64,000 nucleotides of DNA, from the NCBI RefSeq assembly GCF_000423585.1, contig NZ_AUIG01000026.1, forward strand, positions 1 through 64,000, in the 5' to 3' direction. Source of the DNA: Salinimicrobium xinjiangense DSM 19287. GTDB lineage: Bacteria; Bacteroidota; Bacteroidia; Flavobacteriales; Flavobacteriaceae. A program made the position numbers and the translations under genes. This document shows, in pieces, positions 596-63,717 of this stretch; the stretch's first letter is position 1; each line of letters starts with the position of its first letter. The notes under the pieces were generated by a model that did not search any database, was not told the DNA's origin, and was given only the letters and a program-made list of their open reading frames with translations.

Positions 596-655
596 AGTAA
601 GCAGTAAGCAGTAAGGAGTAGGCAGTTATTGAGAAACAAGAGCCAAGAGCCAGAC
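596..655. repeat. Degenerate 7-bp-period arrays
   Basis: The first part steps as GTAAGCA, GTAAGCA, GTAAGGA, GTAGGCA. A second short array at about 636-655 steps as CAAGAGC, CAAGAGC. Both keep a 7-bp register although the unit sequence differs, like the other heptamer arrays in this window. Confidence 0.65.
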
Positions 656-699
656 CTTTTCTACATAATCTTTGTTACCACCAAGATTTTCATTGTAAG

Positions 700-836
700 A
701 GTCCCCTCCCTCGGAGGGAGCCTGTCCCGAACTTGTTTCGGGATGGCCGCAGGACGGGGTGGGGATTTGTAGGGGATCAACTCGCAACCCGCAACCCGCA
801 ACCCGTTCGAAACCTGCAACCTGAAACCTGCAACTT
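700..836. repeat. Dispersed repeat family A, copy 1, with heptamer tail
   Basis: Bases 701-780 match 3265-3344 with only a few differences: tcccctccctcggaggga, then cctgtcccgaacttgttt, then the cggggtgggga block. The copy contains a ccctcggaggg palindrome and a cccgaacttgtttcggg hairpin. It runs into a 7-bp-period tail (CCCGCAA, CCCGCAA, ... CCTGCAA, CCTGAAA, CCTGCAA) to about 836, as copy 2 does. Confidence 0.8.
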
Positions 837-927
837 TTTAATCTAACCCTCCTGCGCAATAGCTTCGGCGGGCAGGCAGCTAACAGCAAAAGCTAACACT
901 AAAAGAAAACCTACCATTATAAAAACT

Positions 928-935
928 TATATTTG
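928..935 (+). promoter_or_regulatory. Candidate -7 element (TATATTTG) for gmd
   Basis: TATATTTG fits the Bacteroidota -7 consensus TAnnTTTG. No clear TTG -33 box is seen about 19-20 bp upstream. Transcription would start near 942, only about 20-40 bp before the N-terminus that the Gmd family requires. Confidence 0.4.
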
Positions 936-963
936 TTTTTAGCTAATCAATCTTTGTAATACT

Positions 964-2097
964 ATCGAAACAAAATCTTCACAAAAGACCGCTTTAATTA
1001 CCGGTATCACTGGACAGGACGGGGCTTACTTAGCCGAATTTCTTCTCAAAAAAGGCTACGTGGTGCATGGGATCAAAAGAAGATCGAGCCTATTTAATAC
1101 CGAAAGAGTGGATCATCTTTACCAGGATCCTCATGAGGAGGATATCAGGTTTAAGCTACATTACGGGGACCTGAGCGATTCGATGAACCTTACACGGATC
1201 ATCCAGGAAGTGCAGCCCGATGAGATCTATAATCTGGGAGCCATGTCTCACGTAAAGGTGAGTTTTGATACTCCGGAATATACGGCTAATGTAGACGGAC
1301 TCGGTACTCTTCGTATACTTGAGGCAGTAAGATTGCTGGGGCTTACAAAAAAGACCAGGGTTTATCAGGCTTCAACTTCAGAATTATACGGATTGGTACA
1401 GCAGGTGCCGCAGACGGAGAAGACTCCATTCTATCCGCGAAGCCCTTATGGAGTGGCGAAATTATATGCTTACTGGATCACCGTGAATTATAGGGAAGCT
1501 TATGATATGTTCGCCTGCAATGGAATTTTGTTCAACCATGAATCTCCCTTGCGGGGAGAGACCTTTGTCACCCGAAAGATCACCAGGGCGGTGGCACGAA
1601 TAGCACTGGGGATGCAGGAGAAATTTTTCCTGGGAAACCTGGATGCGCAAAGAGATTGGGGGCACGCAAAGGATTATGTGGAGGCCATGTGGTTGATGCT
1701 GCAGCAGGATAAGCCTGAAGATTACGTCATCGCTACCGGTAAAACCACTTCTGTAAGAGAACTGGTGAGGATGGCTTTTGACTGTGTCGGAATAGAACTT
1801 GAATTTACGGGAGAGGGAGAGCAGGAAAAGGCTAAAGTGGTGAAGTGTGAGAATCCTGATTTTCAGATTCAGGCAGGAACAACGGTACTTGAAATTGATC
1901 CTAAATATCACCGGCCAACAGAGGTGGATCTGCTCATAGGCGACGCTTCAAAATGTAAAGAGAAACTGGGATGGGAGCCAAAACACAGTCTTCAGGACCT
2001 GGTAGAGGAAATGGTGGCAGCAGATGTAGAACTTTTCCGAAGAGAAAAATATTTGAGGGAAGGCGGACACAGGACGCTGGATTTTAGGGACGAGTAA
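964..2097 (+). CDS. gmd: GDP-mannose 4,6-dehydratase
   Basis: Converts GDP-D-mannose to GDP-4-keto-6-deoxy-D-mannose in the cytosol, the first step towards GDP-L-fucose. An SDR-fold protein: the NADP-binding TGITGQDG motif lies at about 1000-1023, with the catalytic STSELYG region and the SPYGVAK Y-x3-K pair downstream. [19 protein letters not shown] is typical of Gmd. The conserved N-terminus lies upstream of the first canonical start (GTG at 1060), yet no in-frame ATG, GTG or TTG exists between the stop at 940-942 and 1060. I place the start provisionally at an ATC (964); the true start is uncertain. Followed by fcl, its pathway partner, after a repeat-filled gap. Confidence 0.85.
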
Positions 2098-2102
2098 TTA
2101 AG

Positions 2103-2244
2103 TTTAAGAGTCAAGAGCCAAGAGACTAGAACCAAGACTTTTTTGTGGTCAGTGTTCAGTGTCAGTGATCAGAAATAAACAATAAACGGTAAACCGAAAA
2201 CGGTAAACAATAAACGGTAAACAGAAAACAGTAAACCGAAGAAA
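2103..2244. repeat. Degenerate heptamer arrays between gmd and fcl
   Basis: First TCAAGAG, CCAAGAG, ACTAGAA, CCAAGAC; then CAGTGTT-type units; then CGGTAAA, CCGAAAA, CGGTAAA, CAATAAA, CGGTAAA, CAGAAAA, CAGTAAA, CCGAAGA running up to the fcl start codon. The period is 7 bp throughout while the unit wording changes twice. Confidence 0.75.
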
Positions 2245-3165
2245 TTGAAAAAAGATTCAAAAATTTACATAGCCGGACATAACGGCATGGTGGGATCGGC
2301 ATTGGTGCGGAAGCTGAAAAAAGAAGGTTTCAAAAATCTCATTTTCCGAAGCTCTTCTGAACTGGATCTTACGCAACAGCAGGCCGTAGCGGATTTTTTT
2401 AAAGAGGAGAAACCTGATTATGTATTTCTTGCTGCTGCAAAGGTAGGTGGGATCATGGCCAACAATACCTATAGAGGTCAGTTTCTTTACGAAAACCTCA
2501 TGATCCAGAACAACGTGATCCACCAGAGCTATTTACACGGAGTGAAAAAACTCCTGTTCCTGGCTTCTTCCTGTATTTATCCGAAAATGTCTCCGCAGCC
2601 GATTAAAGAGGAATACCTGCTCAGTGGAAAGCTGGAGCCTACAAATGAGCCTTATGCCATCGCTAAGATCGCCGGACTCAAAATGTGTGAGGCTTATAAT
2701 CTGCAGTACGGCTGTGACTTTATATCGGTAATGCCGACAAACCTTTACGGGCCAAATGATAATTACGATCCTGAAACGGCTCATGTCCTGCCTGCACTGC
2801 TGCGGAAGTTTCATGAAGCAAAAGAGCAAAGTAAACCCTCAGTAGAGGTATGGGGCACAGGAGCTCCAAAAAGGGAATTCTTGCATGTTGATGATCTGGC
2901 TGAAGCCTGTCTGCACCTCATGCAAACCTACAGCGGAAATTTAAGTGTTAACATAGGGACGGGAGAGGATCTTTCTATTAAAGATCTGGCAGAAATGATA
3001 AAAAATATCACCGGCTATTCCGGAGAGATTTCCTGGGACGCCACAAAACCCGATGGCACTCCACGAAAGCTGCTGGATGTTTCACTTATCCACAGTCTGG
3101 GGTGGAAGCATTCTATTTCCCTAAAGGAGGGGATAAGGAGGGTTTATGAGGAGAAATTTATCTGA
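2245..3165 (+). CDS. fcl: GDP-L-fucose synthase
   Basis: Epimerises and reduces GDP-4-keto-6-deoxymannose to GDP-L-fucose using NADPH. Seen: the [10 protein letters not shown] nucleotide-binding motif near residue 10, SSCIYPK, and the YAIAKIAG Y-x3-K pair; [12 protein letters not shown] and [15 protein letters not shown] are family hallmarks. The 306 residues are close to the usual 310-320. The start is a TTG directly after a heptamer array; no nearer ATG keeps the Rossmann motif intact. Works with gmd upstream. GDP-fucose would feed the fucosyltransferase-like gene at 15399-16226. Confidence 0.93.
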
Positions 3166-3166
3166 A

Positions 3167-3235
3167 GCACCAAATTTCAAGCACCAAGCATTTATCCTCT
3201 GGATCTTCAGCGGAGGAGGACCAAATTCCAAACTT
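3167..3235. repeat. Heptamer-like array after fcl
   Basis: Units such as CACCAAA, TTTCAAG, CACCAAG and later ACCAAAT/TCCAAAC keep roughly a 7-bp period, interrupted by ctggatcttcagcggagg. Confidence 0.5.
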
Positions 3236-3263
3236 TTGTTTTACCTGAAAGATTGTTTAAATG

Positions 3264-3385
3264 AGTCCCCTCCCTCGGAGGGAGCCTGTCCCGAACTTGT
3301 TTCGGGATGGCCGTAGGTCGGGGTGGGGATTCGTAGGAGATCAACCCGCCACCCACAATCCGCAACTCGCTACCGGCAACGGTAA
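3264..3385. repeat. Dispersed repeat family A, copy 2, with heptamer tail
   Basis: Near-identical to 700-780 over about 80 bp, in the same orientation. It is followed by CCCGCCA, CCCACAA, TCCGCAA, CTCGCTA, CCGGCAA units with a 7-bp period. A short open frame across it is repeat-derived and not a gene. Confidence 0.8.
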
Positions 3386-3463
3386 AACATATGTCTATCT
3401 AAACTTGCTAAAAAGAGAAGGAATAGAAAAAAAGCTTTTTATTTGCAATTAACAGTTATTTGG

Positions 3464-4405
3464 ATGAAAGTACTGGTTACAGGAGCAGCGGGATTTATAG
3501 GTTCGCATACTGCGGAAAAATTGCAAAAGGCAGGAATGGAGGTGATGGGGATTGACAATTTTTCTCCTTATTATGACATAACTCTCAAACGGCAGAATGC
3601 AGATATCCTCAAAGACTTGGGAGTAGAAATTGTGGAGGTGGATCTTAGAGATAAGGAGCGTCTTCTACAAATTCCAATTAACTTTGATTTCATAATACAT
3701 TTTGCCGCACATCCCGGTCTTTCTGCTAAAAGTACCTTTGATGATTACTACACTAACAATGTTCTGGGTACCAGAAATCTTATAAATTTTGCAGAACTGA
3801 ATAAAGATCTAAAACATTTTATTTACATCTCCACTTCTTCTGTTTACGGCCTTAAAGTCGATTTTCCCGAAACTACACCTCCTAATCCGGCTTCAGATTA
3901 TGGGAGTACCAAATTGGAGGGAGAAGAACTAATTATGAAGGAAGTAGAACTAGGGAGCATGAAAGCTTCAATACTCAGACTTTTCTCTGTTTATGGTCCC
4001 AGGGAACGGCCCGATAAATTGTACACCAGGCTAATATCCTGTGGATTAAACAATGAAGTTTTTCGAATCTTTGAAGGAAGTGAAAAACATTCCCGCAGCT
4101 TTACTTATGTGGGAGATATTGTGAAAGGAATTTATCAGGCTGTCTTGAGGTATGACAAAATAAATGGAGAAATTATTAATTTGGGAGCCAGGGAAGAATA
4201 TAAGACCCTGGATGGAATTGCTCTGGTAGAGGAACTGCTGGGGAAGCAAATTAAAATTGAGGTAATTTCAAAGAGAAATGGTGATCAATTAGCGACTTCA
4301 GCCAATATTGGTAAGGCAATTGAATGGTTAGAATATAATCCGTCTACAACTCTTAAAGAGGGACTTAAAAAACAGATTGACTGGTATAAAAATTTAAGAG
4401 TGTAG
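3464..4405 (+). CDS. NAD-dependent nucleotide-sugar epimerase/dehydratase (UDP-glucuronate 4-epimerase-like)
   Basis: An extended SDR enzyme of 313 residues acting on a UDP-sugar in the cytosol. VTGAAGFIGSH is the NAD-binding motif at the N-terminus; STSSVYG and YGSTKLEGE give the catalytic Ser/Tyr/Lys; SVYGPRERPD is the substrate-loop signature of UDP-hexose/uronate epimerases. I chose ATG 3464 over an upstream in-frame start because it places the Rossmann motif directly at the N-terminus. The exact substrate (UDP-GlcA/GalA versus UDP-Glc/Gal) cannot be read with confidence. It sits alone between two repeat-filled gaps. Confidence 0.85.
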   Translation: MKVLVTGAAGFIGSHTAEKLQKAGMEVMGIDNFSPYYDITLKRQNADILKDLGVEIVEVDLRDKERLLQIPINFDFIIHFAAHPGLSAKSTFDDYYTNNVLGTRNLINFAELNKDLKHFIYISTSSVYGLKVDFPETTPPNPASDYGSTKLEGEELIMKEVELGSMKASILRLFSVYGPRERPDKLYTRLISCGLNNEVFRIFEGSEKHSRSFTYVGDIVKGIYQAVLRYDKINGEIINLGAREEYKTLDGIALVEELLGKQIKIEVISKRNGDQLATSANIGKAIEWLEYNPSTTLKEGLKKQIDWYKNLRV

Positions 4406-4507
4406 GGAATAAATTGATTTTCGCCTGTCCGCATTTTCATAATGGATAATCTGCTATAGAGGGTATTCGTTAAGGAGTCTTCCTGACTGACAGCTAGTTT
4501 GACTTTT

Positions 4508-4655
4508 TTCATCTCGACAGAGCTTCCTAACCGGAGGAAAGGAAGCGACGAGAGATCTCATGAAACAAATACGAATTCTCCTTTTGCATTTCAGGAGGCC
4601 GATTTCTCAGTCGCCAAAAAGGCTCCCCTGCCTGCCGGCAGGCAGGTTCGAAATG
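4508..4655 (+). repeat. Dispersed repeat family B, copy 1
   Basis: Contains tctcgacagagcttcc, gcgacgagagatctcatgaa and gatttctcagtcgcc in fixed order. The same order recurs in reverse complement at 63257-63425 and 63430-63600. Near its end lies a perfect 20-bp palindrome (4627-4646, CCTGCCTGCC and its complement). The rest of the 4406-4796 gap shows no gene; small open frames here are repeat-derived. Confidence 0.8.
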
Positions 4656-4796
4656 ATAAATCCCTGGAAAAAATTCCTCATTTCTTTATTCACTTCAAAA
4701 TTATTTTCCATAACTGTCGTTATATATGGACGAATAGTAACAGGTATTAAAAAAAATCTTTTTATTTGTAAATAGTTTGAAGCACAATCCAGTCTT

Positions 4797-5492
4797 ATGA
4801 AAAAAAACATTTTAGCCCTTCTAGTAATTTTTGCCTTTAGTTATACCGGTTTCTCACAAACCTTTAGTTACGGACTCAAAGGAGGGATCAATTACGCTAT
4901 GGGTGGTGAAATAAGAGGTAGTAAATCTAATGCAAATTACTGGGGTGAGACGATTCAGGGAGTTGGAGGTTTAGGCTATCATGGAGGTATATTTGGACAG
5001 GTTAACTTCGGTAAATTTTTTATCCGTCCGGAGGTGGTTTATACCTCTTTAACTCAGGAGTTTGAAATTCCACTGCGAGAGGAAAACACGCCATATGATT
5101 TGCAAACATTCACTATTCCTTTAATGTTGGGTTATAATATTTATGGTCCTCTTGATGTGTATGCAGGACCTGTTTATTCCAATGTGCTGGATGCAAAAAT
5201 TTACGGCGAACAAAATGATCAACTAATTGTTGTTCAAAATACACCAATAAACGCACAGGCCGGAGTAAAAGTTGAAGTTGGCAGATTTGGTCTTGACGTG
5301 AGATATGAACATTCTCTTTCTACTGCTGAGCGGCAGGAAATAGATCTGGATAATAACCTCTTTGGTGGACCTAACGGAGGAGCTAATAAAGGCTGGTTTA
5401 ATGACGCCAGGTTAAATCAGGTAATCGTGAGCGTTATTTTTAAAATTGGCGGGCCCGGACTGAATGAAAGAAGACGAAGAGCCTGCTATTAA
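4797..5492 (+). CDS. Outer-membrane beta-barrel protein (PorT-like family)
   Basis: 231 residues. A signal peptide (MKKNILALLVIFAFSYTGFSQ) ends at a typical flavobacterial FSQ|T site. The rest alternates short amphipathic strands: YGLKGGINYA at the start, VEVGRFGLDVRYEHSLS near the end and a final strand VIVSVIFKIGG. This resembles outer_membrane_beta-barrel_2 proteins of Bacteroidota. Its role is not known; in this setting a structural or channel role for surface polysaccharide is possible but inferred from position only. Convergent with the next gene. Confidence 0.75.
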   Translation: MKKNILALLVIFAFSYTGFSQTFSYGLKGGINYAMGGEIRGSKSNANYWGETIQGVGGLGYHGGIFGQVNFGKFFIRPEVVYTSLTQEFEIPLREENTPYDLQTFTIPLMLGYNIYGPLDVYAGPVYSNVLDAKIYGEQNDQLIVVQNTPINAQAGVKVEVGRFGLDVRYEHSLSTAERQEIDLDNNLFGGPNGGANKGWFNDARLNQVIVSVIFKIGGPGLNERRRRACY

Positions 5493-5498
5493 AAAGAA

Positions 5499-5534
5499 GT
5501 GGGCAGTAGGCAGTAGTTAGTGGGCAGTATTAAT
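5499..5534. repeat. Short heptamer array
   Basis: GTGGGCA, GTAGGCA, GTAGTTA, GTGGGCA, GTATTAA in strict 7-bp register between two convergent genes. Confidence 0.65.
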
Positions 5535-5562
5535 GAAAGGAAAATTCCGACGTTTACATTTT

Positions 5563-6402: not shown

Positions 6403-6419
6403 TCTTTAAAGTAAGTTTT

Positions 6420-6427
6420 CAAAAATA
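6420..6427 (-). promoter_or_regulatory. Candidate -7 element (TATTTTTG)
   Basis: On the minus strand TATTTTTG fits TAnnTTTG, 18 bp upstream of the ATG at 6402. The -33 region has only a weak match. Confidence 0.35.
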
Positions 6428-6528
6428 GAATAATGTCCTGAAACCACCACATATTAAAGAACGGGGGCTATAAAAGAAAGCAAGAACAACAATACTACAC
6501 ATTTATTTTATTATTAACATTCAAAACC

Positions 6529-6536
6529 TATATTTG
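6529..6536 (+). promoter_or_regulatory. Candidate -7 element (TATATTTG) for wza-wzc
   Basis: TATATTTG fits the Bacteroidota -7 consensus and lies 20 bp upstream of the wza ATG, giving a leader of roughly 14 nt. No clear TTG -33 is visible. Confidence 0.45.
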
Positions 6537-6556
6537 TCTTTACCTATTAGTCCCAA

Positions 6557-7345: not shown

Positions 7346-7348
7346 TGT

Positions 7349-9817: not shown

Positions 9818-9868
9818 TTGACTTAGAGCATAAATTGGATCTAAGCACCGTATCTGTCTTTTAGTTCA

Positions 9869-49828: not shown

Positions 49829-50866
49829 ATGAAAAAAAGAATTCTTTATATAGGTAACAATCTTTCCAATCCCACCTTTACCGCTACCTATATTTCTTTT
49901 TTTAGTGAAGTATTAAAGCAGGAGGGTTACTGGGTTAAAACCGCTTCCGGGAAAGATAACAAAGCCCTCCGCCTGGTAGAAATGCTTTCCCTCATCTGGA
50001 GCCATCGCAAAGAAACTGATGTGGTGCTTATCGATACTTACGGCGCTCAGAATTTTTATTATGCCTATAGCATTGGTAAGCTTTGCCAGCAATTAAAACT
50101 GCCTTACATCCCTATATTACACGGCGGAAATTTAAAGGAACGTCTGGATAAAACCCCTAATCTTACCAAATCGCTTTTCGGCAACGCCCGTATTAATGTT
50201 GCCCCTTCACATTTTTTATATGACATCTTTGTAGATCACGGCTTTACCAACTCCCGGATCATTCCAAACTCCATCACCCTCGAAAATTATCCTTTTAAGG
50301 AGAGGAAGACATTTAAGCCCAATTTTCTTTGGGTCCGGAGGTTTCAGGAACGTTATAATCCGCTGATGGCTATTAAGGTCTTTGAACAGGTATACAGAAA
50401 TCATCCCGAAGCCAAATTGTGCATGGTGGGGCCGGAGAAGGATGGTTCTCTGGCCAAATGTTTGGAATATGCGTCAGAAAATAATTTACCTGTTGAATTT
50501 CCGGGGAAAATGAAGAAGAAGGAATGGTCAGCACTCTCTGTGAACTACGATTTTTTTATAAACTCTACCGATGTTGATAATACGCCGATTAGCGTAATAG
50601 AAGCCATGGCCCTCGGTCTCCCCGTGATCTCTACGGATGTCGGCGGAATGCCTTACCTTATAGAAAACGGCAAGGACGGCATCCTCGTACCACAGAACGA
50701 CGTCCCCGCCATGGTCTCTGCTATAGAAGACCTGCTCCAGAACCCGGAAAAGTGTCAGAATATAGCTAAAGCGGCCTATGAGAAGGTCAGGAGGTTTGAT
50801 TGGGAGATCGTGAAGGAGGAGTGGATTTCTGTTTTGAATGAATCAGTTGTGAGTTGTCAGTTGTGA
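49829..50866 (+). CDS. GT4-family glycosyltransferase (paralogue of 54737-55750)
   Basis: 345 residues, GT-B. ILYIGNNLSNPTFTATYISF, LIDTYGAQNFYYAYSIGKL, YIPILHGGNLKERLDKTP and SVIEAMALGLPVISTDVGG run parallel to the gene at 54737-55750; about half the residues agree by eye. The last residues (ESVVSCQL) are encoded by a 14-bp (2x7) tandem repeat that continues past the stop, so the native C-terminus was probably altered. ATG 49829 preferred over an adjacent TTG. Confidence 0.88.
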   Translation: MKKRILYIGNNLSNPTFTATYISFFSEVLKQEGYWVKTASGKDNKALRLVEMLSLIWSHRKETDVVLIDTYGAQNFYYAYSIGKLCQQLKLPYIPILHGGNLKERLDKTPNLTKSLFGNARINVAPSHFLYDIFVDHGFTNSRIIPNSITLENYPFKERKTFKPNFLWVRRFQERYNPLMAIKVFEQVYRNHPEAKLCMVGPEKDGSLAKCLEYASENNLPVEFPGKMKKKEWSALSVNYDFFINSTDVDNTPISVIEAMALGLPVISTDVGGMPYLIENGKDGILVPQNDVPAMVSAIEDLLQNPEKCQNIAKAAYEKVRRFDWEIVKEEWISVLNESVVSCQL

Positions 50867-50903
50867 GTTGTCAGTTGTGAGTTGTCAGTTGTGAGTTGTC
50901 AGT
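50840..50903. repeat. Tandem heptamer array (2x7-bp unit)
   Basis: GTTGTGAGTTGTCA repeats about four times, i.e. alternating GTTGTGA and GTTGTCA heptamers. It starts inside the GT4 gene (encoding its last eight residues) and ends at the IS256-type element. It reads as the reverse complement of the CTGACAA-type units at 52277-52394. Confidence 0.9.
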
Positions 50904-50906
50904 GGG

Positions 50907-52184
50907 AGTGTTCAATTAAGTGTGTCATCGGTTAAAAATCTATTATCAAAGTAAGCTACCAGATCTTTACGAACTGATGACCATCCAAACATACAACCAT
51001 TCCATTTGGTTTTAGCGTTGATTGTTGCTAAATATATTTGTTTCACAATAGCGTATTCTGATGTGAAAGCTCCTTTGGTTTTAGTGACCTTTCGTACCAT
51101 TCTATGGAAGCTTTCAATGGGATTATTAGTGTATATGACTCTTCTTAATGCAGGTGGATATTTGTAAAAGTTAATTAATCTACCCCAGTTAGCTCTCCAA
51201 CTTTTAAAAATTACATTGTATTTATTTCCCCACTTTTCCTCTGCCAGAGTCAAAAATTGCTCTGCTGCATCTACATTTATAGCTGTATAGATCTTTCTTA
51301 GATCTGTAATGATAGGTTTAACATCTTTATGAGATACATATTTAAGACTATTCCTCATTTGATGTACCAGGCATAGCTGTACATCAGTTTTAGGGAATAT
51401 ATCTTCAATAGCATCTGCAAATCCTTTGAGATTATCTATACACGCTACAAAAACATCCTGAACCCCTCTGGACTGAAGTTTGTGAAGTACTTGTCTCCAA
51501 AAGCTACTGGATTCATTGTCTCCGAAGTAGATCCCCAGCACTTCTTTCTCTCCGTCTCTGTTAACCCCTAAAACAGAATAAACAGCCTTAGCAATTACTT
51601 TACCATGTTCTCTGACTTTGAAGTGCATTGCATCAAGCAAATCACTGGGTAAACACTCTCTAAAGGTCTGGCTTGCCATTCTAAAATCTCTGGGATTATC
51701 CGATCTGTAATGGCATTTAGAGTACCGACAGAGATTTCAACATCATACATCTCTTTAAGATGATCTTGTATATCCCGGTAACTCATTCCTTTACCATAGA
51801 GGGAAAGAATACGTGCATCTATATCACTACTGATGCGCCGTTGTCGCTTTTTTATGATCTCAGGTTGGAACGAACCGTCCCGGTCACGCGGCGAAAAAAT
51901 CTCAAAGCCGCCCAACGAGCTATTGATATTTTTTCGCCCACGCCCATTGCGGCGGTTCTTTGCTAACTTACCTTCAGAATTTAAGTGAGCATCCATTTCT
52001 CCTTCTAAACTCGCTTCGATCACTCGTTTTAATAGTGGGGTAAAAACACCATCCTTACCAGTCAAGGATTGACCAGAAGAAACGCCTTTAGCTAATTCAG
52101 CTACTAAGGCGTCATAATCATTTGGCTTTTCTTTATTTTCCATGTATCTAATTTATTAAATTGACACACTTTTCTGAACAGTCT
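50907..52184 (-). mobile_element. IS256-family insertion sequence
   Basis: Terminal inverted repeats are visible: TGTTCAATTAAGTGTGTCA at 50909-50927, and the reverse complement of 52162-52180 reads TGTTCAGAAAAGTGTGTCA, 16 of 19 matching. Short gag/gagac extensions lie outside. It encloses one transposase gene broken by a frameshift. I see no clear 8-9 bp target duplication. Confidence 0.85.
50912..52143 (-). pseudogene. IS256-family transposase, frameshifted
   Basis: Two minus-strand frames give one Transposase_mut protein. The first part (52143 down to about 51630) holds DGVFTPLLKRVIEASLEGEM and FEIFSPRDRDGSFQPEIIKK. The second (to 50912) holds LDAMHFKVREHG, FVACIDNLKGFADAIEDIFP, CLVHQMRNSLKYV and TNNPIESFHRMVRKVTK, with the D, D and E catalytic residues. 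The frame breaks near 51629-51638, in the strand carrying the first Asp (VICL/DAMHF): one base appears missing. IS256 elements do not usually rely on programmed frameshifting, so the copy is probably inactive. Confidence 0.88.
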
Positions 52185-52276: not shown

Positions 52277-52394
52277 ATAATTGAAACCGATAACTGAGAA
52301 CCGACAACCGGTAAACTGACAACCCAGAACTGACAACCGAGAACCGATAACCGGGAACTGAGAACGGACAACTGATAACCGAAAACTGAAAGAC
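52277..52394. repeat. Degenerate heptamer array upstream of four-helix-bundle gene
   Basis: About fifteen units of form CYGANAA: CCGATAA, CTGAGAA, CCGACAA, (CCGGTAAA), CTGACAA, CCCAGAA, CTGACAA, CCGAGAA, CCGATAA, CCGGGAA, CTGAGAA, CGGACAA, CTGATAA, CCGAAAA, CTGAAAG. It stops directly before the ATG at 52395. Open frames on the minus strand here are repeat artefacts. Confidence 0.9.
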
Positions 52395-52757
52395 ATGAAA
52401 AGCTACAAAGATCTGGATATTTACAATTTGGCATTTGCCTATGCTATAGAAGTACATAAAGCTTCTCTGAAAATGCCAAAATTTGAATTATATGAGCAGG
52501 GGAGTCAGGTGAGACGATCCTCTAAGAGTATAAAAGATAATATAGTCGAAGGATATGGTAGAAGAACCTATAAACAGGATTTCATTAAATTCCTGACTTA
52601 CAGTCACGCCTCTCTTCTTGAATGTTTTTCTCAGCTGGAAATGATTGATGAACTTTATGAAATTCCGGAGATAAAGGATTTGAGAAAGAAATATGATCTT
52701 TTGGGCGGTAAAATATTTTCTTTCATTCAATATGTAGAGAAAAACTGGAAAAGTTAA
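52395..52757 (+). CDS. Four-helix-bundle protein (23S rRNA IVS / S23-type)
   Basis: 120 residues, all helical: MKSYKDLDIYNLAFAYAIEV, QGSQVRRSSKSIKDNIVEGY, GRRTYKQDFIKFLTYSHASL and ECFSQLEMIDELYE. This is the TIGR02436/S23 family, related to the accessory protein Avd of diversity-generating retroelements and to proteins encoded in rRNA intervening sequences. The function is unknown; nucleic-acid binding is likely given the basic surface. The gene is closely bracketed by heptamer arrays (52277-52394 and 52757-52846), suggesting it belongs to the same element as the repeats. Confidence 0.88.
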   Translation: MKSYKDLDIYNLAFAYAIEVHKASLKMPKFELYEQGSQVRRSSKSIKDNIVEGYGRRTYKQDFIKFLTYSHASLLECFSQLEMIDELYEIPEIKDLRKKYDLLGGKIFSFIQYVEKNWKS

Positions 52758-52846
52758 GCTCAGTTCTCAGTTGTGAGTTGTCAGATTTGCTTCCTTAAAC
52801 CGAACCGACAACCGACAACCGACAACCGACAACCGACAACCGACAT
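52757..52846. repeat. Heptamer arrays downstream of four-helix-bundle gene
   Basis: First CAGTTCT, CAGTTGT, GAGTTGT, CAG (reverse orientation of the left array), a 20-bp spacer, then six CCGACAA units in forward orientation (about 52804-52845). The left and first right arrays are therefore inverted relative to each other around the gene. Confidence 0.85.
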
Positions 52847-53603: not shown

Positions 53604-53930
53604 TTAAGATAATTTCAACTCCTGATTTAACAAGGTGACATTGAAATTTACTTTAGCGTTTAAGGCTTTGAATACTCTCATTATTGTATCAAAACGTGCA
53701 TCTGTTATATGATTTTCAATTTTTGAAATTTGAGCCTTTTGAACTCCCACTAATTCTCCAAGTTGAGCTTGTGTAAGATTTCTTTCTTTGCGTGCCTCTT
53801 TAATTGCATGTCCTATTAGATCTAGCCGAAGTTCGTTTTCGAACGCATCTCTTTCCGGCGTCCCAACTCTTCCAACATATTTTTCGGTTATCTCGTCTAA
53901 ACTTTTAGTCGTCATATTTTTATTGCTCAT
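53604..53930 (-). CDS. higA: HigA-type antitoxin (XRE helix-turn-helix)
   Basis: 108 residues. The helix-turn-helix lies in RKERNLTQAQLGELVGVQKA, followed by QISKIENHITDARFDTIMRV and a short beta tail (KVNFNVTLLNQ). It follows the toxin gene by 4 bp, the toxin-first order of higBA operons. Looks intact, whereas its toxin partner appears damaged. Confidence 0.85.
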   Translation of the reverse strand: MSNKNMTTKSLDEITEKYVGRVGTPERDAFENELRLDLIGHAIKEARKERNLTQAQLGELVGVQKAQISKIENHITDARFDTIMRVFKALNAKVNFNVTLLNQELKLS

Positions 53931-53934
53931 AACT

Positions 53935-54219: not shown

Positions 54220-54237
54220 ATACTACTACCATTTCAA

Positions 54238-54268
54238 CAAAGGTAAATGTTTCTTGATAAGGAAACAA
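54238..54268 (-). promoter_or_regulatory. Candidate promoter of higBA
   Basis: On the minus strand TTG (54266-54268) and TACCTTTG (54238-54245) are separated by 20 bp, matching the Bacteroidota TTG/TAnnTTTG pattern. The higB ATG begins about 19 bp downstream. Confidence 0.5.
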
Positions 54269-55750: not shown

Positions 55751-55897
55751 GGTTTGATGCATGAGAAATTAAGAAGGAGGAAACCCTGACATAAAGGCTG
55801 TAGGATTTAAATAATTATACATACTTTTAACTCCACTAACGCCGGTCCCTATCTTTTTTATGTATCTATATTATTTTCCCATACTACATTGTACGTA

Positions 55898-56626: not shown

Positions 56627-56673
56627 TGAAACTGCAAAATAGTCCAGACTATTAAGATTTGAAATATCAGATT

Positions 56674-57669: not shown

Positions 57670-57684
57670 CCAGTATTAGTGCCC

Positions 57685-58944
57685 ATGAAGTTTTTATACT
57701 CCAGAACCTTAATTCTTAGTTGTTACCTTTTTCTTTTTTCTTTTTTCCTGATCTATCTACTAATCCAAAAAATCAGATTGGGATATGATAAAGAGAGTTG
57801 GCAAATTACCGAGTTCTTAATTAATTACCAGGGAGGTTTTGTTAGGAGGGGATTACTCGGGGAAATAATTCTAAAACTGCATTCATGTTGTGGATTAGAC
57901 CCGTATAATGCAATTATAACTTTGACTTTAATTTCTTTTGTTCTTTTAATAGGTTTTTTTGTAATTAATTTAAAAAGAGGTGGTTTTACATTGTTTTTCC
58001 TGCCTTTTGTATTTTTTTTAGGAGGTCCTATTATTCATGATTTCTGGGTAAGAAAGGATATTCTGTTAGTACTTATTTTTATACTGACAATTCATCTGCT
58101 CACAAGAAGAAACAGACCCAACTTCATATTGGTCAATCTTTCTCTAATAAGTGGTATTTTAATCCACGAATCGATTGCTTTTTTCAGTTTTCCAATTATG
58201 TTTTTACTGCTCTATTCCAGAAAGAAATCCTTTTGGGTTCCTGCATTATTTTTATTACCCTCCTTGCTGGTCTTTTTTCTGGTGGTATATTTTAAGGGGT
58301 CGCTTTACATTTCTCAAGAAATATGGAACTCATGGAAAGCTATTTCATTTCCATATGAATCTGCTGAAAAATCAGGAATTCCAGCAGCAGTTGATGGTTT
58401 ATCCTGGACCCTTAAGGAAGGCCTATTATATAGCTACCACACCTTAAGGAATTTTAATGATGGTATATATGCTCTTATAGGATGGTCAATAATTATAATT
58501 CTGATCTATTATGTTTTGACTAACACGGATAAGTTGAACCCTAAATTGTTCGGTTACAAAGTGGAAAAATATTTTGATAAAACAATTATTTCAAATCTCC
58601 TGCTTCTTCAATTTTTTTCTGTTATTCCATTATTTATTTTAGGCTGGGACTATGGCCGATGGATATTCTTTTGGACAACATCTTCTTTTGCTGTATATTT
58701 AGTAGTTCCTCAAAGGCAATTAAATCAGCTATTCCCTCTTATTATTTCCGATACTTCGCGGAAAATGAACGGATCCTTAACACATCTATTTAAAGGAACT
58801 TCTGTTTTACTCCTGTGCATATTAATTGGTTTTCCAGCACACTCATGGAGCCTTACCGGCACTGTCAATTCCAGCTCCTTTATAATTGTTTTAAGGTTTA
58901 TTTCCAGAGTAATAGAACTCCTATTAGCAATGTTAGGTATGTAA
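57685..58944 (+). CDS. Polytopic membrane protein, candidate polymerase or GT-C
   Basis: About 419 residues with roughly 10 hydrophobic spans. The first periplasmic loop reads GYDKESWQITEFLINYQGGF then VRRGLLGEIILKL, and a later loop has FWVRKDILLV. An acidic first loop followed by an Arg-rich motif recalls EpsG/Wzy-like or GT-C enzymes, but I cannot assign a family. It follows a DPM-like GT2 and a STELLO-like gene and precedes the initiating transferase, so a role in polymerisation or periplasmic sugar transfer is plausible. Confidence 0.6.
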   Translation: MKFLYSRTLILSCYLFLFSFFLIYLLIQKIRLGYDKESWQITEFLINYQGGFVRRGLLGEIILKLHSCCGLDPYNAIITLTLISFVLLIGFFVINLKRGGFTLFFLPFVFFLGGPIIHDFWVRKDILLVLIFILTIHLLTRRNRPNFILVNLSLISGILIHESIAFFSFPIMFLLLYSRKKSFWVPALFLLPSLLVFFLVVYFKGSLYISQEIWNSWKAISFPYESAEKSGIPAAVDGLSWTLKEGLLYSYHTLRNFNDGIYALIGWSIIIILIYYVLTNTDKLNPKLFGYKVEKYFDKTIISNLLLLQFFSVIPLFILGWDYGRWIFFWTTSSFAVYLVVPQRQLNQLFPLIISDTSRKMNGSLTHLFKGTSVLLLCILIGFPAHSWSLTGTVNSSSFIIVLRFISRVIELLLAMLGM

Positions 58945-59708
58945 TTCATCCAACCTTGCCCGTCCCGGCGGCATTTTTTGGAGGAGGAGAGAAGAGAAAG
59001 TGATTTCAGGGACAACAGCACTTCACATTTACTTCAGTCGCCTTGTCGGCTCTCTCGCAAAGATGTTCCACAATCAAGATTAGATTGATGGTTAATTGAA
59101 TTTAAACGCAAACAAATTAAGCCAAAAAAAAATAAATCTTGAATCGAATCCGCTGGCGCGGATTTGTAATCCGTGACGAGTGCGAAGCATACACAATTAT
59201 AGCCCCCTTCAGAGCTTGTCCCGATCTTTTGCGGGAGGGTTGGGGGTAGTTGAACGGGGAAAGGATGAGAGCAAAAAGTTTGCAGTGCTCAGTATTCAGT
59301 TGGCAGAAAAATTTTAAAAAAGGAACTAAAAAGTATTTTCAGTAGATTTCAAGAGAAAGATTGCTTCAGTCGCCTTGTCGGCTCTTTCGCAAAGACATAC
59401 CCCGGTCAGGGTTAGGGTGAGAGTTTAGCGGAGTTAAATACCGATAATCTTGAATTTTAAATTTTAAGTCTTGAATCCTCTGTTGGCGCGGATTTGTAAT
59501 CCGTGACGAGTGTGAAGCATACAGAAGAATTCGTGAACCTGCCCGTCCGGCAGGTGGGTTCGTAGCTCAGACTCCTAACAAAAACAACAAACAACAAACA
59601 TTTTTTTTACTAATAAACTTATAATTACTACTTTAACTGCAGATTCAGCTCCCTCCCTACATGTTTATTTCGTCCTAAACGGGACCTTAACCATACGATA
59701 AACACTAA
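58945..59708. repeat. Repeat-filled 760-bp gap with a 330-bp tandem composite
   Basis: No gene. Element D (cttcagtcgccttgtcggct) lies at 59032-59066 and 59364-59395; element C (ggcgcggatttgtaatccgt) at 59155-59192 and 59485-59522. The D-to-C distance is the same in both (about 90 bp), so a unit of about 330 bp is duplicated. Also a shortened family A block (59198-59257) and heptamer arrays (59281-59310, CAGTGCT/CAGTATT/CAGTTGG; 59446-59480, ATCTTGA/ATTTTAA/ATTTTAA/GTCTTGA). A cctgcccg/tccggcagg hairpin is near 59537-59556. Confidence 0.8.
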
Positions 59709-61190
59709 ATGGCAGAGACAGAACTTCTTGAAAAACTTAGTGGTAACAGGCGCGCTGCGTTAAAGTCTTCCTTATATTTACGCCGTAAAAGTTTTTACAT
59801 GCCCCGTAAAACGAACCTGCATTTTGAAATTTCCGAAAGGAAGGTATTTCTCCGCATTTTTGATGTTGTGTGGGTGCTGTTCGCCCTGTACGTGGTGAGC
59901 ATTATTTTTAGACTGGATTATTTTCATATCGACAGCAACTCCTGGCCCTGGAGTATTGTACTGGCCGTGTATATCGCTCTGTTTAACGGAATCTTCGAGC
60001 TTTATGATTTACAGAAAGCCAGCAACTATTATAAAGTCCTGCAGAATGTGGTGCTGGCGAGTTCAGTGACAGTGCTCTTTTTTCTTATGACCCCGGTTGT
60101 AACGCCGGTACTGCCCGAGAACCGGCTGCAGATCCTGTACTTTTTTCTCACTATTCTGCTTACCTTGTTGCTGTGGAGATTTGCTTACATCACTCTTATC
60201 TCTTCCCCCCGGTTTTACCGCAGGGTGTTGATCATTGGGGAACCGCTGGAAGTGGAGCTCGTGGCTTCCCATTTACAGCAGTCAGATCCCAATTACAGTA
60301 TTATCGGCTTTGTGAATACCGGAACCGGTGCTGTTCTAAGAGCTGATGCCATTGGCTTAAAAGAGTTTTCTTCGGAAGAGCTGGAGGAAACCATTCGCAA
60401 AAATGGAATTGATGAGCTGCTTATTTCCAGTGTGACTTCTGCCACTGCGGAAGGTTTATATTCGCAGGTATTCAACCTGCTTAAAAAAGGCTTTCCGGTA
60501 AAGGATTTTAATGAGGTCTATGAAGATAAGACCAACCGGATACCTGTCCAGCATATTGAGCGGAATTTTTACCAGTTCTTTCCGCTAAGCCGGAGTAACA
60601 ACAATAAGTTTTACCTCTTTTTTCACCGCCTGGCCGATGTGCTTATTTCTATTGTGGGTTTGGTCGTGGGATGTTTTTTAATGCTCTTTGTTTACTTCGG
60701 AAATATGATCGCCAACAAAGGCTGTCTATTTTACCGGCAGGAGCGGGTAGGAAAGAACGGAAGATCCTTTACCATTCTGAAATTCCGCACCATGCGCTGT
60801 GACGCTGAAGCCAACGGTGCAGTATGGGCTACCAAGAATGATGTACGTATTACCCGTTTCGGAAAGTTTCTGCGTCGCTCCAGACTGGATGAATTTCCGC
60901 AGTTCTGGAATATCCTGAAGGGGGAGATGAGTGTCATAGGTCCCCGTCCCGAACGTCCTGTATTCGTAAAAGAACTATCTGATCTCATCCCATTTTACGA
61001 TACCCGCCATTTTGTAAAACCCGGACTAACAGGCTGGGCGCAGGTAATGTGCGATTACGCCGATAGTCACGCCGATAGCCTGGAAAAGCTGCAGTACGAT
61101 CTCTACTACATCAAACACCGCAACATCTTCCTCGACATCACCATCCTCACCAAAACCCTGAGTACAGTTATTTTCTTTAGAGGACAGTAG
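59709..61190 (+). CDS. Undecaprenyl-phosphate sugar-1-phosphate transferase (WcaJ/WbaP-type)
   Basis: 493 residues. Four hydrophobic helices between about residues 45 and 160, a CoA-binding-like Rossmann region (VLIIGEPLEVELVASHL), one more helix near 305-330, then the bacterial sugar transferase domain: YRQERVGKNGRSFTILKFRT, RRSRLDEFPQFWNILKGEMS, VIGPRPERP and PGLTGWAQV. It transfers a sugar-1-phosphate, often glucose, to undecaprenyl phosphate, the first membrane step of repeat-unit assembly. Set apart from the cluster by repeats on both sides. Confidence 0.93.
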   Translation: MAETELLEKLSGNRRAALKSSLYLRRKSFYMPRKTNLHFEISERKVFLRIFDVVWVLFALYVVSIIFRLDYFHIDSNSWPWSIVLAVYIALFNGIFELYDLQKASNYYKVLQNVVLASSVTVLFFLMTPVVTPVLPENRLQILYFFLTILLTLLLWRFAYITLISSPRFYRRVLIIGEPLEVELVASHLQQSDPNYSIIGFVNTGTGAVLRADAIGLKEFSSEELEETIRKNGIDELLISSVTSATAEGLYSQVFNLLKKGFPVKDFNEVYEDKTNRIPVQHIERNFYQFFPLSRSNNNKFYLFFHRLADVLISIVGLVVGCFLMLFVYFGNMIANKGCLFYRQERVGKNGRSFTILKFRTMRCDAEANGAVWATKNDVRITRFGKFLRRSRLDEFPQFWNILKGEMSVIGPRPERPVFVKELSDLIPFYDTRHFVKPGLTGWAQVMCDYADSHADSLEKLQYDLYYIKHRNIFLDITILTKTLSTVIFFRGQ

Positions 61191-61563
61191 TTCCAGTGGG
61201 CAGTGCGCAGTGATTTAGTTGGCAGTTAGTGTTCAGTGATCGGTGATTAGTGTTCAACCTTAAAAAATGCAGATTGTCTATTCGAAGGAGCTTCTACTGC
61301 GACAGAGAAATCTGTCTCCCCACCCCGCCCTGTGGGCACCCCTCCGCAGGAGGGGAGGGAAAAAATTGACATCGCAGCAAGAAAACAATCTTAGATCTTT
61401 AATTTTAAATTCTTTTGCTGGCGCGGATTTGCAATCCGTGACGTGTGCGAAGCATAAACGGTTAAAGCCCCCTTCAGAGCTTGTCCCGATCTTTATCGGG
61501 AGGGTTGGGGGTTTTGAGCGGAGGAGAGCATGAACAATTTTGAATCTTGAATTTTATCTTGAA
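61191..61563. repeat. Repeat-filled gap between convergent genes
   Basis: Heptamers at 61191-61258 (CAGTGGG, CAGTGCG, CAGTGAT... TGATCGG, TGATTAG), a partial family B/A mix (61279-61350), heptamers at 61388-61415, element C (61420-61457), a shortened family A block (61465-61522) and ATCTTGA heptamers (61538-61563). Small open frames here are repeat-derived. Confidence 0.75.
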
Positions 61564-63153
61564 TCATCTCCTCGACCTTTTCCACGGTACCATGGCAAAC
61601 AAAAAGATAAACAGCGCCAGGAACAAAGAAATCCTTGCGATATAGTCTCCGAAACGAGTGTAAAAGGTGAGTCGGTCGTTGAGGGTGACTTCACCGCGGA
61701 GCGCTCCCTGTTCTTCATAACCAAGAGTGGCAGTAATTTCTCCTTTTTCGTTTATAAATGCTGATATTCCTGTGTTCGCACTACGTGCTATGGCACGTCG
61801 GGTTTCAATGGCGCGGAGACGGGCGTAGCTGAGGTGCTGTTTATGTCCCTGAGTATTTCCCCACCAGGCATCATTTGTAATAATGGCCAGGAAATCTGCA
61901 CCTTCATTCACATAACCTGTAACGAAATCCCCATAGACCGATTCGTAGCAGATAATAGGACCTACTTCTTCGGTTCCGGAAACATTAAAAGTGCCCCGAT
62001 CTTGTTGTGTGGTCTTCATGGCTACCGTTCCGCCGAGGTCTATCATCACATTGCCGAGAATCGGCCGCAGTACTTCCTGATAAGGGAAATTTTCTACTCC
62101 GACTACCAGTTTTGACTTGTGGTAAAAATGAACGGAATCATTGGCAGAGATCATAAATGCCGAATTATAATCGTCATACCAGTCATTAGGTCCTAACTGG
62201 TTGCTTTGCCCTCTCACTCTTCCCGGATCACTGAAGCGATCGTACATAGAGATCCCGCTTAAAAATGAGATTTCAGGATGATTATTTACAAATTGGGTGG
62301 TAAAGAAATTTGCTTCAGAATCTTCAAACCGGCTTAAAACGGTTCCGTCGGCAAAGACAGTCTCGGGCGCGACTACTATTTTAGTTTCAGGAGTAATATT
62401 TTCTTCAGCAAGTTCAGTTAGCAATTCTCCTATCCGCCGGTCGTTTGTATTGTACTTTTCCGTATACGGATTAACATTCGGCTGCAATACCACTGCTTCG
62501 AGTGATCTTTCACTTTCCTCATAATTCCAGAGGATCAGATAAGAAATTCCGATAGGAACAAGGATCAGCAAAGCGTTTTTGACTAATCCGCGGTATAGAA
62601 TTTCTTTGGCTTTATGTTCCTTGTAAAGCAGGATCATCTTAAGCAGCGCAATATTTGTGAGTAATACCCAAAGCGTACCGCCAAAAGTTCCGGTGAATTC
62701 ATACCATTGGATCCAATGCGCAAATTCTGAAAAACCGTTACCGAGATTCAGCCATGGCCAGGAGAATTCCCAGTTGAGGTGCAGGTATTCAAAGGCTATC
62801 CATATGCTGATAAAAAAAGAGGAAGAGGCACTGAAATTTAGCCTTTTTGCCACTATATGAAACAGCAGGAATACAACGGACATTAACAGCGAGTTTACGG
62901 TGATGGCAAAGATCCCTCCAAAAGGGGTTGAGAAATAGAGCCAGTAAGTGGTGATGAGATTCCAGATAAAAAAGCTGAGATATGAAAGTCCCAGGATCTT
63001 CCATTTTCTGTTGTGTGCCTGTTCCATTCTTATTCTGTGCTCGGCATAGAGCAAAGGCACAAAGGCAAAGAACAACAGCAGTGGAAAGCCATAGGTAGGC
63101 CATGCCAGCGCCAGCAATATTCCGGAAAGTAAAGCGTAAAGGAAGTGTTTCAT
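61564..63153 (-). CDS. lnt: Apolipoprotein N-acyltransferase
   Basis: 529 residues from ATG 63153 (MKHFLYALLSGILLALAWPT); an upstream TTG is less likely. Six hydrophobic N-terminal helices, then a nitrilase-like domain with Glu in VVAPETVFADG, Lys in FYHKSKLVVGVENFPYQE and Cys in GPIICYESVYGDFV, the catalytic triad, and a final C-terminal helix. It adds the third acyl chain to lipoproteins in the inner membrane. A housekeeping gene that marks the right border of the glycan locus. Confidence 0.95.
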   Translation of the reverse strand: MKHFLYALLSGILLALAWPTYGFPLLLFFAFVPLLYAEHRIRMEQAHNRKWKILGLSYLSFFIWNLITTYWLYFSTPFGGIFAITVNSLLMSVVFLLFHIVAKRLNFSASSSFFISIWIAFEYLHLNWEFSWPWLNLGNGFSEFAHWIQWYEFTGTFGGTLWVLLTNIALLKMILLYKEHKAKEILYRGLVKNALLILVPIGISYLILWNYEESERSLEAVVLQPNVNPYTEKYNTNDRRIGELLTELAEENITPETKIVVAPETVFADGTVLSRFEDSEANFFTTQFVNNHPEISFLSGISMYDRFSDPGRVRGQSNQLGPNDWYDDYNSAFMISANDSVHFYHKSKLVVGVENFPYQEVLRPILGNVMIDLGGTVAMKTTQQDRGTFNVSGTEEVGPIICYESVYGDFVTGYVNEGADFLAIITNDAWWGNTQGHKQHLSYARLRAIETRRAIARSANTGISAFINEKGEITATLGYEEQGALRGEVTLNDRLTFYTRFGDYIARISLFLALFIFLFAMVPWKRSRR

Positions 63154-63165
63154 AGTGTCAGGAGA

Positions 63166-63173
63166 CAAAGTTA
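63166..63173 (-). promoter_or_regulatory. Candidate -7 element (TAACTTTG) for lnt
   Basis: On the minus strand TAACTTTG fits TAnnTTTG, about 13 bp before the lnt ATG. No clear -33 box. Confidence 0.35.
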
Positions 63174-63256
63174 TGAAAAGCTAGTATTAATATTACTAAA
63201 TGGGTTTTTAAAACGAATGTTTATGCAATATTAGAGGTACTCGTCGAGTGACTAAG

Positions 63257-63425
63257 AAATCCGCTTCTTCTTTCCTGTCATTTCGAAGGAGCCTTTGTGG
63301 CGACTGAGAAATCTGCCAATTGAGATGAGAGAATATTCTTTTGGGAATAAACATTTTACTCAGATTCGTGAGATCTCTCGTCGCTTTCTTCACTGCCGCT
63401 CAGAAAGCTCTGTCGAGATGACTGT
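63257..63425 (-). repeat. Dispersed repeat family B, copy 2
   Basis: In reverse complement it carries ctcgacagagctttctgagc, gcgacgagagatctcacgaa and gatttctcagtcgcc in the same order as 4508-4655. The tctcgtcgctttct and agaaagctctgtcgaga parts can pair into an imperfect hairpin. Confidence 0.8.
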
Positions 63426-63429
63426 GGAA

Positions 63430-63600
63430 TTTTTGTTCTTGAGTAGTCATTTTGAAGGAGCTTTTCTAGCGACTGAGAAATCTGGTGCTTGAGAAGAGAA
63501 AATACCTTTTTGCTAAGGAACCTTTTCCTCTTATTCATGAGATCTCTCGTCGCTTCCTCTCCATCCGGAAGAAAGCTCTGTCGAGATGACGTTAAGGATG
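63430..63600 (-). repeat. Dispersed repeat family B, copy 3
   Basis: Same layout and orientation as copy 2, directly adjacent to it, so the two form a diverged tandem between lnt and pssA. It is followed by a partial element C (about 63606-63630) and a CTTGGCT-type heptamer array (63640-63676). Confidence 0.8.
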
Positions 63601-63717
63601 AGCAGGTGTAGAGATTTGCAATCCCTGACGAGCTAACGAATAAAAGTCTTGGCTCTAGTTTCTTGGCTCTTGCAGCGTAGCGGTCTTTTTTTCCTATTTT
63701 TACACAAAACCAACCAT

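Follow-up and report, generated by a model that had tools for sequence, protein, structure and literature searches.

What produces the short tandem arrays of constant seven-nucleotide period and changing wording that lie in the gaps between genes of Salinimicrobium xinjiangense DSM 19287? The question is raised by the first 64,000 nucleotides of contig NZ_AUIG01000026.1 (hereafter the window, read on the forward strand), for which the original prediction invoked one copying mechanism acting on any heptamer seed. It was found that some of these arrays are, with near certainty, the inverted arms of a unit in which a gene of the S23 family (Pfam PF05635) stands between an array of word W and an array of the reverse complement of W. 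Copying on any seed is replaced by another account, according to which the heptamer arrays are, in part demonstrably, arms of S23 cassettes. The heptamer excess of bacterial genomes has been in print since 2007 without a settled explanation (cited in PMC4679880 and PMC4692102). The anatomical link between S23 genes and heptamers in several phyla makes both the origin of the arrays and the function of S23 testable. Papers given by PMC number are cited from excerpts.

The seven-nucleotide period

The sample comprised 856,669 of the 3,764,506 bp of the genome, the window included; the genome is assembled in 45 contigs and the window lies in contig 20. Among named matches, the best for a protein of the window comes from Salinimicrobium sediminilitoris, at 77% identity. 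Gene models came from a simple home-made caller in all scripted analyses, and left 490 gaps (112,819 bp) and 760 coding regions in the sample. Arrays were counted in gaps extended by 40 bp of flank on each side and in coding DNA trimmed by 40 bp at both ends.

The fraction of matching bases at lag 7 in the sampled gaps was 0.298, compared with 0.275 after shuffling (z 23.8), with harmonics at lag 14 (z 15.4) and lag 21 (z 8.3) and lesser excesses at lag 3 (z 14.7) and at lags 6 and 2; coding DNA gave 0.251 at lag 7, without a peak. Period-7 arrays numbered 88 in the same gaps and 0.2 after shuffling. There were also 57 arrays of period 14, 24 of period 21 and 0-6 at each of the remaining periods from 4 to 20; shuffled gaps gave 0.0-0.8 arrays per period. 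No period-7 array was found in the trimmed coding sequence, and 86 of the 88 lie mainly outside called genes. Their density is uneven, since 16 of the 41 sampled pieces have none and the 12.7 kb directly past the window have 11. An autocorrelation peak at lags 7 and 14 confined to intergenic DNA had been expected, and was obtained, lag 21 included; the strict period, the restriction to gaps and the differing wording among arrays were all borne out.

Thirteen intervals of the window had been named, and each was compared with 500 dinucleotide shuffles of itself. All 13 exceeded their shuffles at lag 7 (p 0.000 to 0.028), and 7 was the best lag within 4-12 in all except 61538-61563. Six of them (596-655, 781-836, 2103-2244, 50840-50903, 52277-52394 and 52757-52846) hold an array above the threshold used genome-wide; the other seven are sub-threshold, being weaker or degenerate.

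Plain replication slippage with a seven-nucleotide step would account for much of this: the contact length of the polymerase would fit seven nucleotides, any seed would serve, and the products would be tolerated between genes only. The large excess confined to period 7 and its multiples, with none in coding DNA, agrees with it, as do excerpts of PMC4679880 in which heptamers are the commonest long unit in most surveyed genomes and two Cyanothece strains differ chiefly by indels in steps of seven nucleotides. The arms of the S23 genes put this explanation in a different light.

S23 genes between matched inverted arms

One small gene of the window is bracketed by arrays on both sides (TRF, Tandem Repeats Finder; IVP, intervening-sequence protein):

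52285..52391, minus strand: left arm of some 15 degenerate heptamers, which read on the plus strand as AACCGAG / AACTGAC type, from TRF and arm alignment; it stops 3 bp short of the S23 start codon
52395..52757, plus strand: S23 / 23S-rRNA-IVP four-helix-bundle gene of 120 amino acids (Pfam PF05635, E 2.8e-22); its product matches the PDB sequence 2gsc (XCC0516), E 3.4e-6
52759..52784, plus strand: right arm, an inverted copy of the left arm (GTTCTCA GTTGTGA GTTGTCA), from arm alignment; it begins 1 bp past the S23 stop codon
52803..52845, minus strand: outer right array of 6.1 perfect AACCGAC units, from TRF and alignment; it has the strand of the left arm and direct similarity to it

A second S23 gene of the sample (PF05635; stretch L025, 2571-2942) likewise has arrays on both sides, and about six of the 88 sampled arrays adjoin these two genes. 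PF05635 occurs in 11 of the 12 genomes of the genus, with 12 copies in that of the window, and is present in 75 of 99 Bacteroidota genomes. In many of 30 genus loci, and in the two sampled ones, arrays were found just 5' of the start codon and just 3' of the stop codon, the 3' array being similar to the 5' one in reverse complement.

The match between arms was measured as the local score of the upstream flank against the reverse complement of the downstream flank, within and between loci. Each search contributed its best-scoring PF05635 matches (at most 30), a non-random choice in which several loci are orthologous. In the genus, where 32 loci were reduced to 28 (one without a frame, three shorter than 100 amino acids), the score was 14.3 within and 8.1 between loci, which was equalled in 0 of 100,000 permutations. 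Three further sets gave 0 of 20,000 permutations each: Bacteroidota, 13.4 against 8.0 in 27 of 30 loci, three of the 27 with a wrongly picked long frame; other phyla, 18.5 against 7.7 in the 22 of 30 loci with a frame of 95-200 amino acids; and cyanobacterial plasmids, 18.5 against 9.65 in 14 of the 17 cyanobacterial records among 23 matching ones. The other-phyla set covered Chloroflexota, one deltaproteobacterium, one Paceibacterota genome and Verrucomicrobia. Its strong cases came from the Chloroflexota and from two of the three deltaproteobacterial loci; the single locus of Paceibacterota was borderline (z 3.0), and the Verrucomicrobia S23 loci were without an arm match. The clearest plasmid arms consist of G-rich heptamers such as GGGAGTA and GGGAACA.

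For the lag, wobble and per-locus tests the Bacteroidota set comprised 24 loci. In each of the four sets the autocorrelation of the S23 flanks is highest at lag 7, with a lesser peak at lag 8 in the Bacteroidota and other-phyla sets. An arm match of z>3 was obtained for 54 of 88 S23 loci (genus 19/28, Bacteroidota 13/24, other phyla 14/22, cyanobacterial plasmids 8/14), compared with 8 of 291 control genes, all taken from the genome of the window. A period-7 array was detected in either flank of 22/28 genus, 13/22 other-phyla and 10/14 plasmid loci; because arrays were detectable in just 7 of the 24 Bacteroidota loci, most Bacteroidota arms outside the genus are short or degenerate. Words vary from cassette to cassette, but the two arms of a given cassette match, and in 48 of the 54 matched loci G outnumbers C in the left arm when it is read on the strand that encodes S23.

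A survey of 1952 genes from the fetched stretches and the named loci, which may contain further PF05635 genes, yielded 19 with inverted flanks scoring at least 16. Just two of the 19 stand between lag-7 arrays, and each of these is a PF05635 gene. Of the remaining 17, 14 are small genes that share a repeated flank, two are copies of a single palindrome-flanked gene and one is a Y1 transposase gene.

Since the arms are so often inverted partners, they would not be expected from independent slippage on random seeds, and they refute slippage as the whole story. With the recurrence of words at unlinked sites and the stop-codon sense placement described below, they also set aside the notion of one copying mechanism indifferent to its seed.

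The cassettes resemble the intervening sequences (IVS) of 23S rRNA genes in having a PF05635 frame and inverted terminal repeats able to form a stem, the latter clear in the 54 matched loci. The readable neighbours, however, are protein genes and not 23S rRNA (no search with rRNA models was made). Nor do the cassettes have the build of a DNA transposon: between the arms that were read the S23 frame stands alone, without a transposase or recombinase. PF05635 is not known as a transposase family.

How the arms stay matched has to be inferred. They may form a stem in the transcript that has the S23 frame as its loop and is cut by RNase III, with selection acting for complementarity. The inverted orientation agrees with such an RNA stem, and the duplex energy of the genus flanks is -27.9 within loci against -19.2 between loci; excerpts of PMC4990558 report RNase III cleavage of a 23S IVS in vitro, and those of PMC4476775 a heptamer-built stem in the Nostoc tRNA-Leu intron. 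On the other hand, a same-strand control duplex was equally stable on average (-27.5), perhaps because of partly self-complementary words, and mismatches of the kind that G.U pairing allows in the sense RNA were not in excess: 51 vs 58 in the 53 of 74 loci with an arm score of at least 12, and 45 vs 51 and 29 vs 34 under stricter cuts. As there is no wobble bias, pairing at the RNA level alone is not supported, and the RNA stem appears to us rather doubtful as the explanation of the arms. Pairing at the DNA level, copying from arm to arm and a protein that reads both arms remain.

Copying from arm to arm would need no function at all, if template switching at the fork between inverted repeats rewrote one arm from the other. 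In agreement with this, the mismatches are symmetric, and the words vary between cassettes while the arms stay alike. Yet arrays that share a gap are not homogenised as inverted partners, although 24 of 29 such pairs stand closer together than S23 arms do; this is a weak test because just 11 of the 29 are of opposite strand. In four near-identical cassettes, moreover, the right arms seem by eye better conserved across species than the left arms. We consider arm-to-arm copying unlikely.

Two insertion sites were compared between genomes. At the junction before a gene whose product starts MELLDGKK, MTLLDGKK or MTILDGKK, examined by eye in 12 genomes, eight have the S23 gene with at least one arm, one gene being broken (left arm of L325 from L206). 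A ninth (L333) has a decayed S23 frame with a partial right arm, and the remaining three have neither S23 frame nor arrays. The junction ...QHMLQKGKPLRN / MN(K/R)TAYIVKGYRTA... is an S23 hot spot in many genomes of the genus (L179-L190, L193), and is occupied in different species by three S23 subfamilies, about 40-50% identical, each with its own heptamer word; its neighbours are presumably genes of fatty-acid oxidation. From the two comparisons it follows that the arms accompany the S23 gene and that the latter site has been used more than once.

In three cyanobacterial plasmids (L338, L342 and L348) the S23 gene lies within a cas locus, between cas6 and cas4 in two and between cas10 and a cmr3-family gene in one. 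L342 and L348 have matched inverted S23 flanks, and in L338 the gene is flanked on either side by long direct arrays of AAAGCTA type. S23 genes have been noted in cas loci before (PMC3936711). The anatomical link with heptamers suggests that S23 genes in cas and other operons may be insertions and not members of the pathway.

Other elements stand near the cassettes or came up in the flank survey. In the window, a Mutator-family transposase in two overlapping frames (50912-52143, minus strand) lies between an array and the S23 cassette, and a helix-turn-helix protein (53604-53930, minus strand), whose match to a family of addiction-module antidotes is below threshold, is encoded near it. The 14 small genes of the survey (L160, L161, L174 and L175; related genomes G006 and G008) are each followed by the common flank ...CAACAACATATAAAAACAATGC..., and we take them to resemble integron gene cassettes with attC-like sites. 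The Y1 transposase (PF01797; L025, 7934-8395, contig 20 just past the window) has palindromic flanks and a heptamer array upstream, presumably the build of transposases associated with repetitive extragenic palindromes.

Arrays without an S23 gene

Further arrays of the window are as follows:

596..626, plus strand: solo array, AGTAAGC x 4.4, then about two CAAGAGC-type units to 655 (TRF and direct reading)
778..834, minus strand: a CAACCCG array adjoining an AACCTGC array, both downstream of a palindromic repeat (TRF and direct reading)
2106..2240, no strand assigned: composite gap with AAGAGCC-type, CAGTG-type and then TAAACAG/TAAACGG units (TRF and direct reading), starting about 8 bp past the stop codon of the frame that ends at 2097
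3343..3385, minus strand: weak degenerate CAACCCG-type array (lag-7 shuffle test, p 0.006)
5499..5534, plus strand: degenerate GTGGGCA / GTAGGCA array, shortly past a stop codon (shuffle test)
50843..50903, plus strand: alternating TCAGTTG / TGAGTTG (14-bp double unit); the array overlaps an open reading frame at its 3' end (TRF)
59281..59310, plus strand: short CAGTGCT / CAGTATT array (shuffle test)
59446..59480, no strand assigned: degenerate ATCTTGA / AATTTTA array (shuffle test)
61191..61258, plus strand: degenerate CAGTGNN array, immediately 3' of a stop codon (shuffle test); Salinimicrobium sediminilitoris (L045) has, by eye, a like array at the equivalent position

The words of the arrays are not arbitrary, and form recurrent classes once aligned by rotation and strand, such as GTGATCA/GTGTTCA, AGGTTCA/AGATTCA, GTATTGA, TTGTTAA, GTTGTCA and GGGTTGC. 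In the CAGT class (21 arrays, 93 units) G (0.97) and T (0.95) are near-invariant, although these positions had served to select the class; the sixth position, which played no part in the selection, is almost free (0.12 bits). In the 64 arrays with at least three deviating bases, the best two adjoining phases take up 65% of the deviations, compared with 55% at random.

Placement is equally ordered. After three of the 88 arrays had been dropped, having no usable flanking gene, 37 of 85 lay in convergent gaps with both neighbours present and 4 in divergent gaps, compared with 63 and 92 of the 399 gaps of at least 60 bp. Of the 49 arrays no more than 20 bp from a gene edge, 35 stand at the 3' end with the aligned strand in sense, as do 25 of the 29 near a gene edge with the clearer strand. 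Neighbours of opposite strand make up 11 of 29 same-gap pairs, and all 11 run plus then minus, an order that is partly due to the 3'-sense rule. Control genes have an array downstream in 36 of 291 cases and upstream in 9.

In an orthologous gap followed by eye through four species, an array of about five units keeps its site while its words change by substitution (two of the four arrays are above the threshold). Gaps that bear an array are longer than orthologous array-free ones, by a median of 89.5 bp and in 33 of 44 comparisons, which are not independent; 774 pairs of array-free gaps differ by a median of 3 bp.

Against plain slippage speak the word classes that recur in unlinked arrays and leave one phase free, a sense-strand placement anchored at stop codons, and an array that keeps its site and some five units while its words are substituted. 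Taken together with the S23 arms, these observations make it possible, though rather unlikely, that slippage alone explains the arrays of this genome; for the solo arrays it is a serious rival.

Two other origins were weighed. The arrays could serve an RNA or DNA regulator as sites of binding within untranslated regions, as suggested for the TAACTGA repeats of Beggiatoaceae. Their position at stop codons here, and at start codons in Beggiatoaceae, and the near-invariant core with a free position would suit such sites, but there are several distinct word classes, and in the excerpts of MacGregor 2015 (PMC4679880) the functions of the downstream genes follow no pattern. We regard regulator sites as quite improbable. 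Templated addition by a telomerase-like reverse transcriptase comes to mind since the bacterial DRT10 makes tandem-repeat DNA (PMC12632851), but the words vary within arrays. The genome has just two PF00078 matches, of equal score, near the ends of contigs 8 and 14. The one scanned, on contig 8, is a group II intron maturase; no DRT10-type reverse transcriptase was recognised among the PF00078 matches, although no DRT10-specific model was used. Templating of this kind was rejected, and can be considered extremely improbable.

Palindromic repeats share some of these gaps. A long one (CCCCTCCCTCGGAGGGAG...GGGTGGGGATT) has two copies in the window (about 697-770 and 3265-3340), each with a CAACCCG-type heptamer array close behind it, and similar elements occur in gaps of related genomes. 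A second, GCGCGGATTTG(T/C)AATCCGTG, has three copies (near 59150, 59487 and 61420) in gaps close to degenerate arrays.

A joint reading and its relation to known systems

The observations can be brought together in a reading that joins the S23 cassettes, the solo arrays and the matching of arms. The cassettes lie between neighbouring genes, each with a word W of its own that is common to both arms. The solo arrays, which are the more numerous sort, would be the same kind of arm without an S23 gene. This is proposed because they share with the left arms the period, the word classes, the strand rule and the placement at stop codons, their G-richer strand being in sense as in most left arms. They would gain and lose units by slippage of seven nucleotides in 3' flanks, where units that break a frame may be tolerated. 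The two arms of a cassette would be read or paired together, either by forming a stem or by being bound as a pair of arrays by the ring-shaped S23 protein, so that words might drift freely provided that both arms and the seven-nucleotide spacing followed. As a whole we give this reading a little less than an even chance.

Several observations weigh against it. Inverted partnership is not the rule among arrays that share a gap (29 pairs, two of which adjoin S23 genes; 14,850 of 20,000 permutations as good), and no S23 remnant was found in 56 array-bearing gaps, for which reason the solo arrays were rejected as relics of S23 genes. The number of S23 genes as the driver of array density was likewise not supported (Spearman 0.25, p 0.25, in 22 genomes sampled over 15-857 kb, some of them over no more than 15-60 kb), and four genomes of one genus have 11-16 S23 genes yet 0-3 arrays per 60 kb. 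The G.U-type mismatches are not in excess, as reported above. Direct similarity of the flanks is also raised, though less than the inverted one: 10.5 vs 8.0 in the genus (0 of 100,000 permutations), with 1, 0 and 112 of 20,000 permutations as good for Bacteroidota, other phyla and plasmids. No clear arm match is seen in 34 of the 88 S23 loci; Bacteroidota beyond the genus have a period-7 array in 7 of 24 loci against 42 of 291 controls, and the controls come from one genome. The left arm in the window is itself C-rich, contrary to the usual G bias. A weak rank correlation of 0.22 between S23 protein and word (pairs at different sites, 0 of 2000 permutations) is confounded by kinship and coding flanks and was not used as support.

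It is tempting to go further. In Xanthomonas, S23 forms a ring of five identical subunits (Lin 2006, cited in PMC4990558 and PMC3936711), and S23 proteins are described as of unknown function (PMC4990558). We propose that the geometry of this ring, and not the polymerase, sets the period: five sevens make 35 nucleotides, near the usual four to five units. The TRAP ring, which reads spaced triplets, offers a parallel. The pentamer would then read one heptamer per subunit, the linker bases outside its contacts being left to drift, and arrays across phyla, including the short tandemly repeated repetitive (STRR) sequences of cyanobacteria, would be arms or stranded arms of S23 elements. This wider proposal is speculative, and we think it rather improbable.

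Arrays of period 7 as such are familiar. Mrazek 2007 reported the heptamer excess among longer bacterial tandem repeats and explained it by the length of the polymerase (cited in PMC4679880 and PMC4692102), and such arrays are on record from Xanthomonas and cyanobacteria (PMC4679880, PMC4692102). MacGregor 2015 described TAACTGA heptamer arrays in Beggiatoaceae, cyanobacteria and five Bacteroidetes (PMC4679880). The original prediction knew of no established mechanism in Bacteroidota; as to mechanism this stands, as to occurrence it does not.

With the TAACTGA repeats the present arrays share the heptamer, the intergenic position and the place beside start or stop codons; in the excerpts of PMC4679880, however, those repeats have mainly one word and lie at start codons, whereas the genome of the window has many words, mostly at stop codons. 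The cyanobacterial STRR sequences (GGGGATT and others) agree in period, intergenic position and degeneracy (PMC4692102). The tandem degenerate heptamers in gaps and the many dispersed copies, 88 in 0.857 Mb, place the present arrays in the same class. On cyanobacterial plasmids heptamers form inverted arms around S23 genes, 8 of the 14 loci having an arm match, but a link of STRR sequences with S23 was not found in the open-licence literature searched. The P6b stem of the Nostoc tRNA-Leu intron is likewise composed of heptanucleotide motifs that gain and lose units of seven nucleotides, but it is one RNA locus, and the excerpts of PMC4476775 mention no S23.

Two of three S23 proteins scanned gave a match below the cut-off to PF22296, which suggests a distant likeness to bAvd-like proteins; diversity-generating retroelements have Avd as their accessory protein. 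The whole genome has just the two PF00078 matches mentioned; no search for a reverse transcriptase beside the cassettes was made.

A close comparison is with the 23S IVS of Coxiella and Leptospira, in which an S23/PF05635 frame lies in the loop of inverted terminal repeats. In the Coxiella IVS the terminal stem measures 28 bp and is cut by RNase III in vitro, and two or three tandem heptamers stand just before the S23 start codon and, varying between strains, are treated as a variable local feature (PMC4990558). Among the open-licence PMC papers searched, the excerpts of this one alone join S23 with heptamers, which is not proof of absence elsewhere. The present cassettes differ from the IVS in lying between protein genes and in their arms, which often both consist of heptamers whose words are specific to the cassette. 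While period-7 arrays were known, in Bacteroidetes as well, heptamer arrays that bracket S23 genes as inverted arms in several phyla appear to be new.

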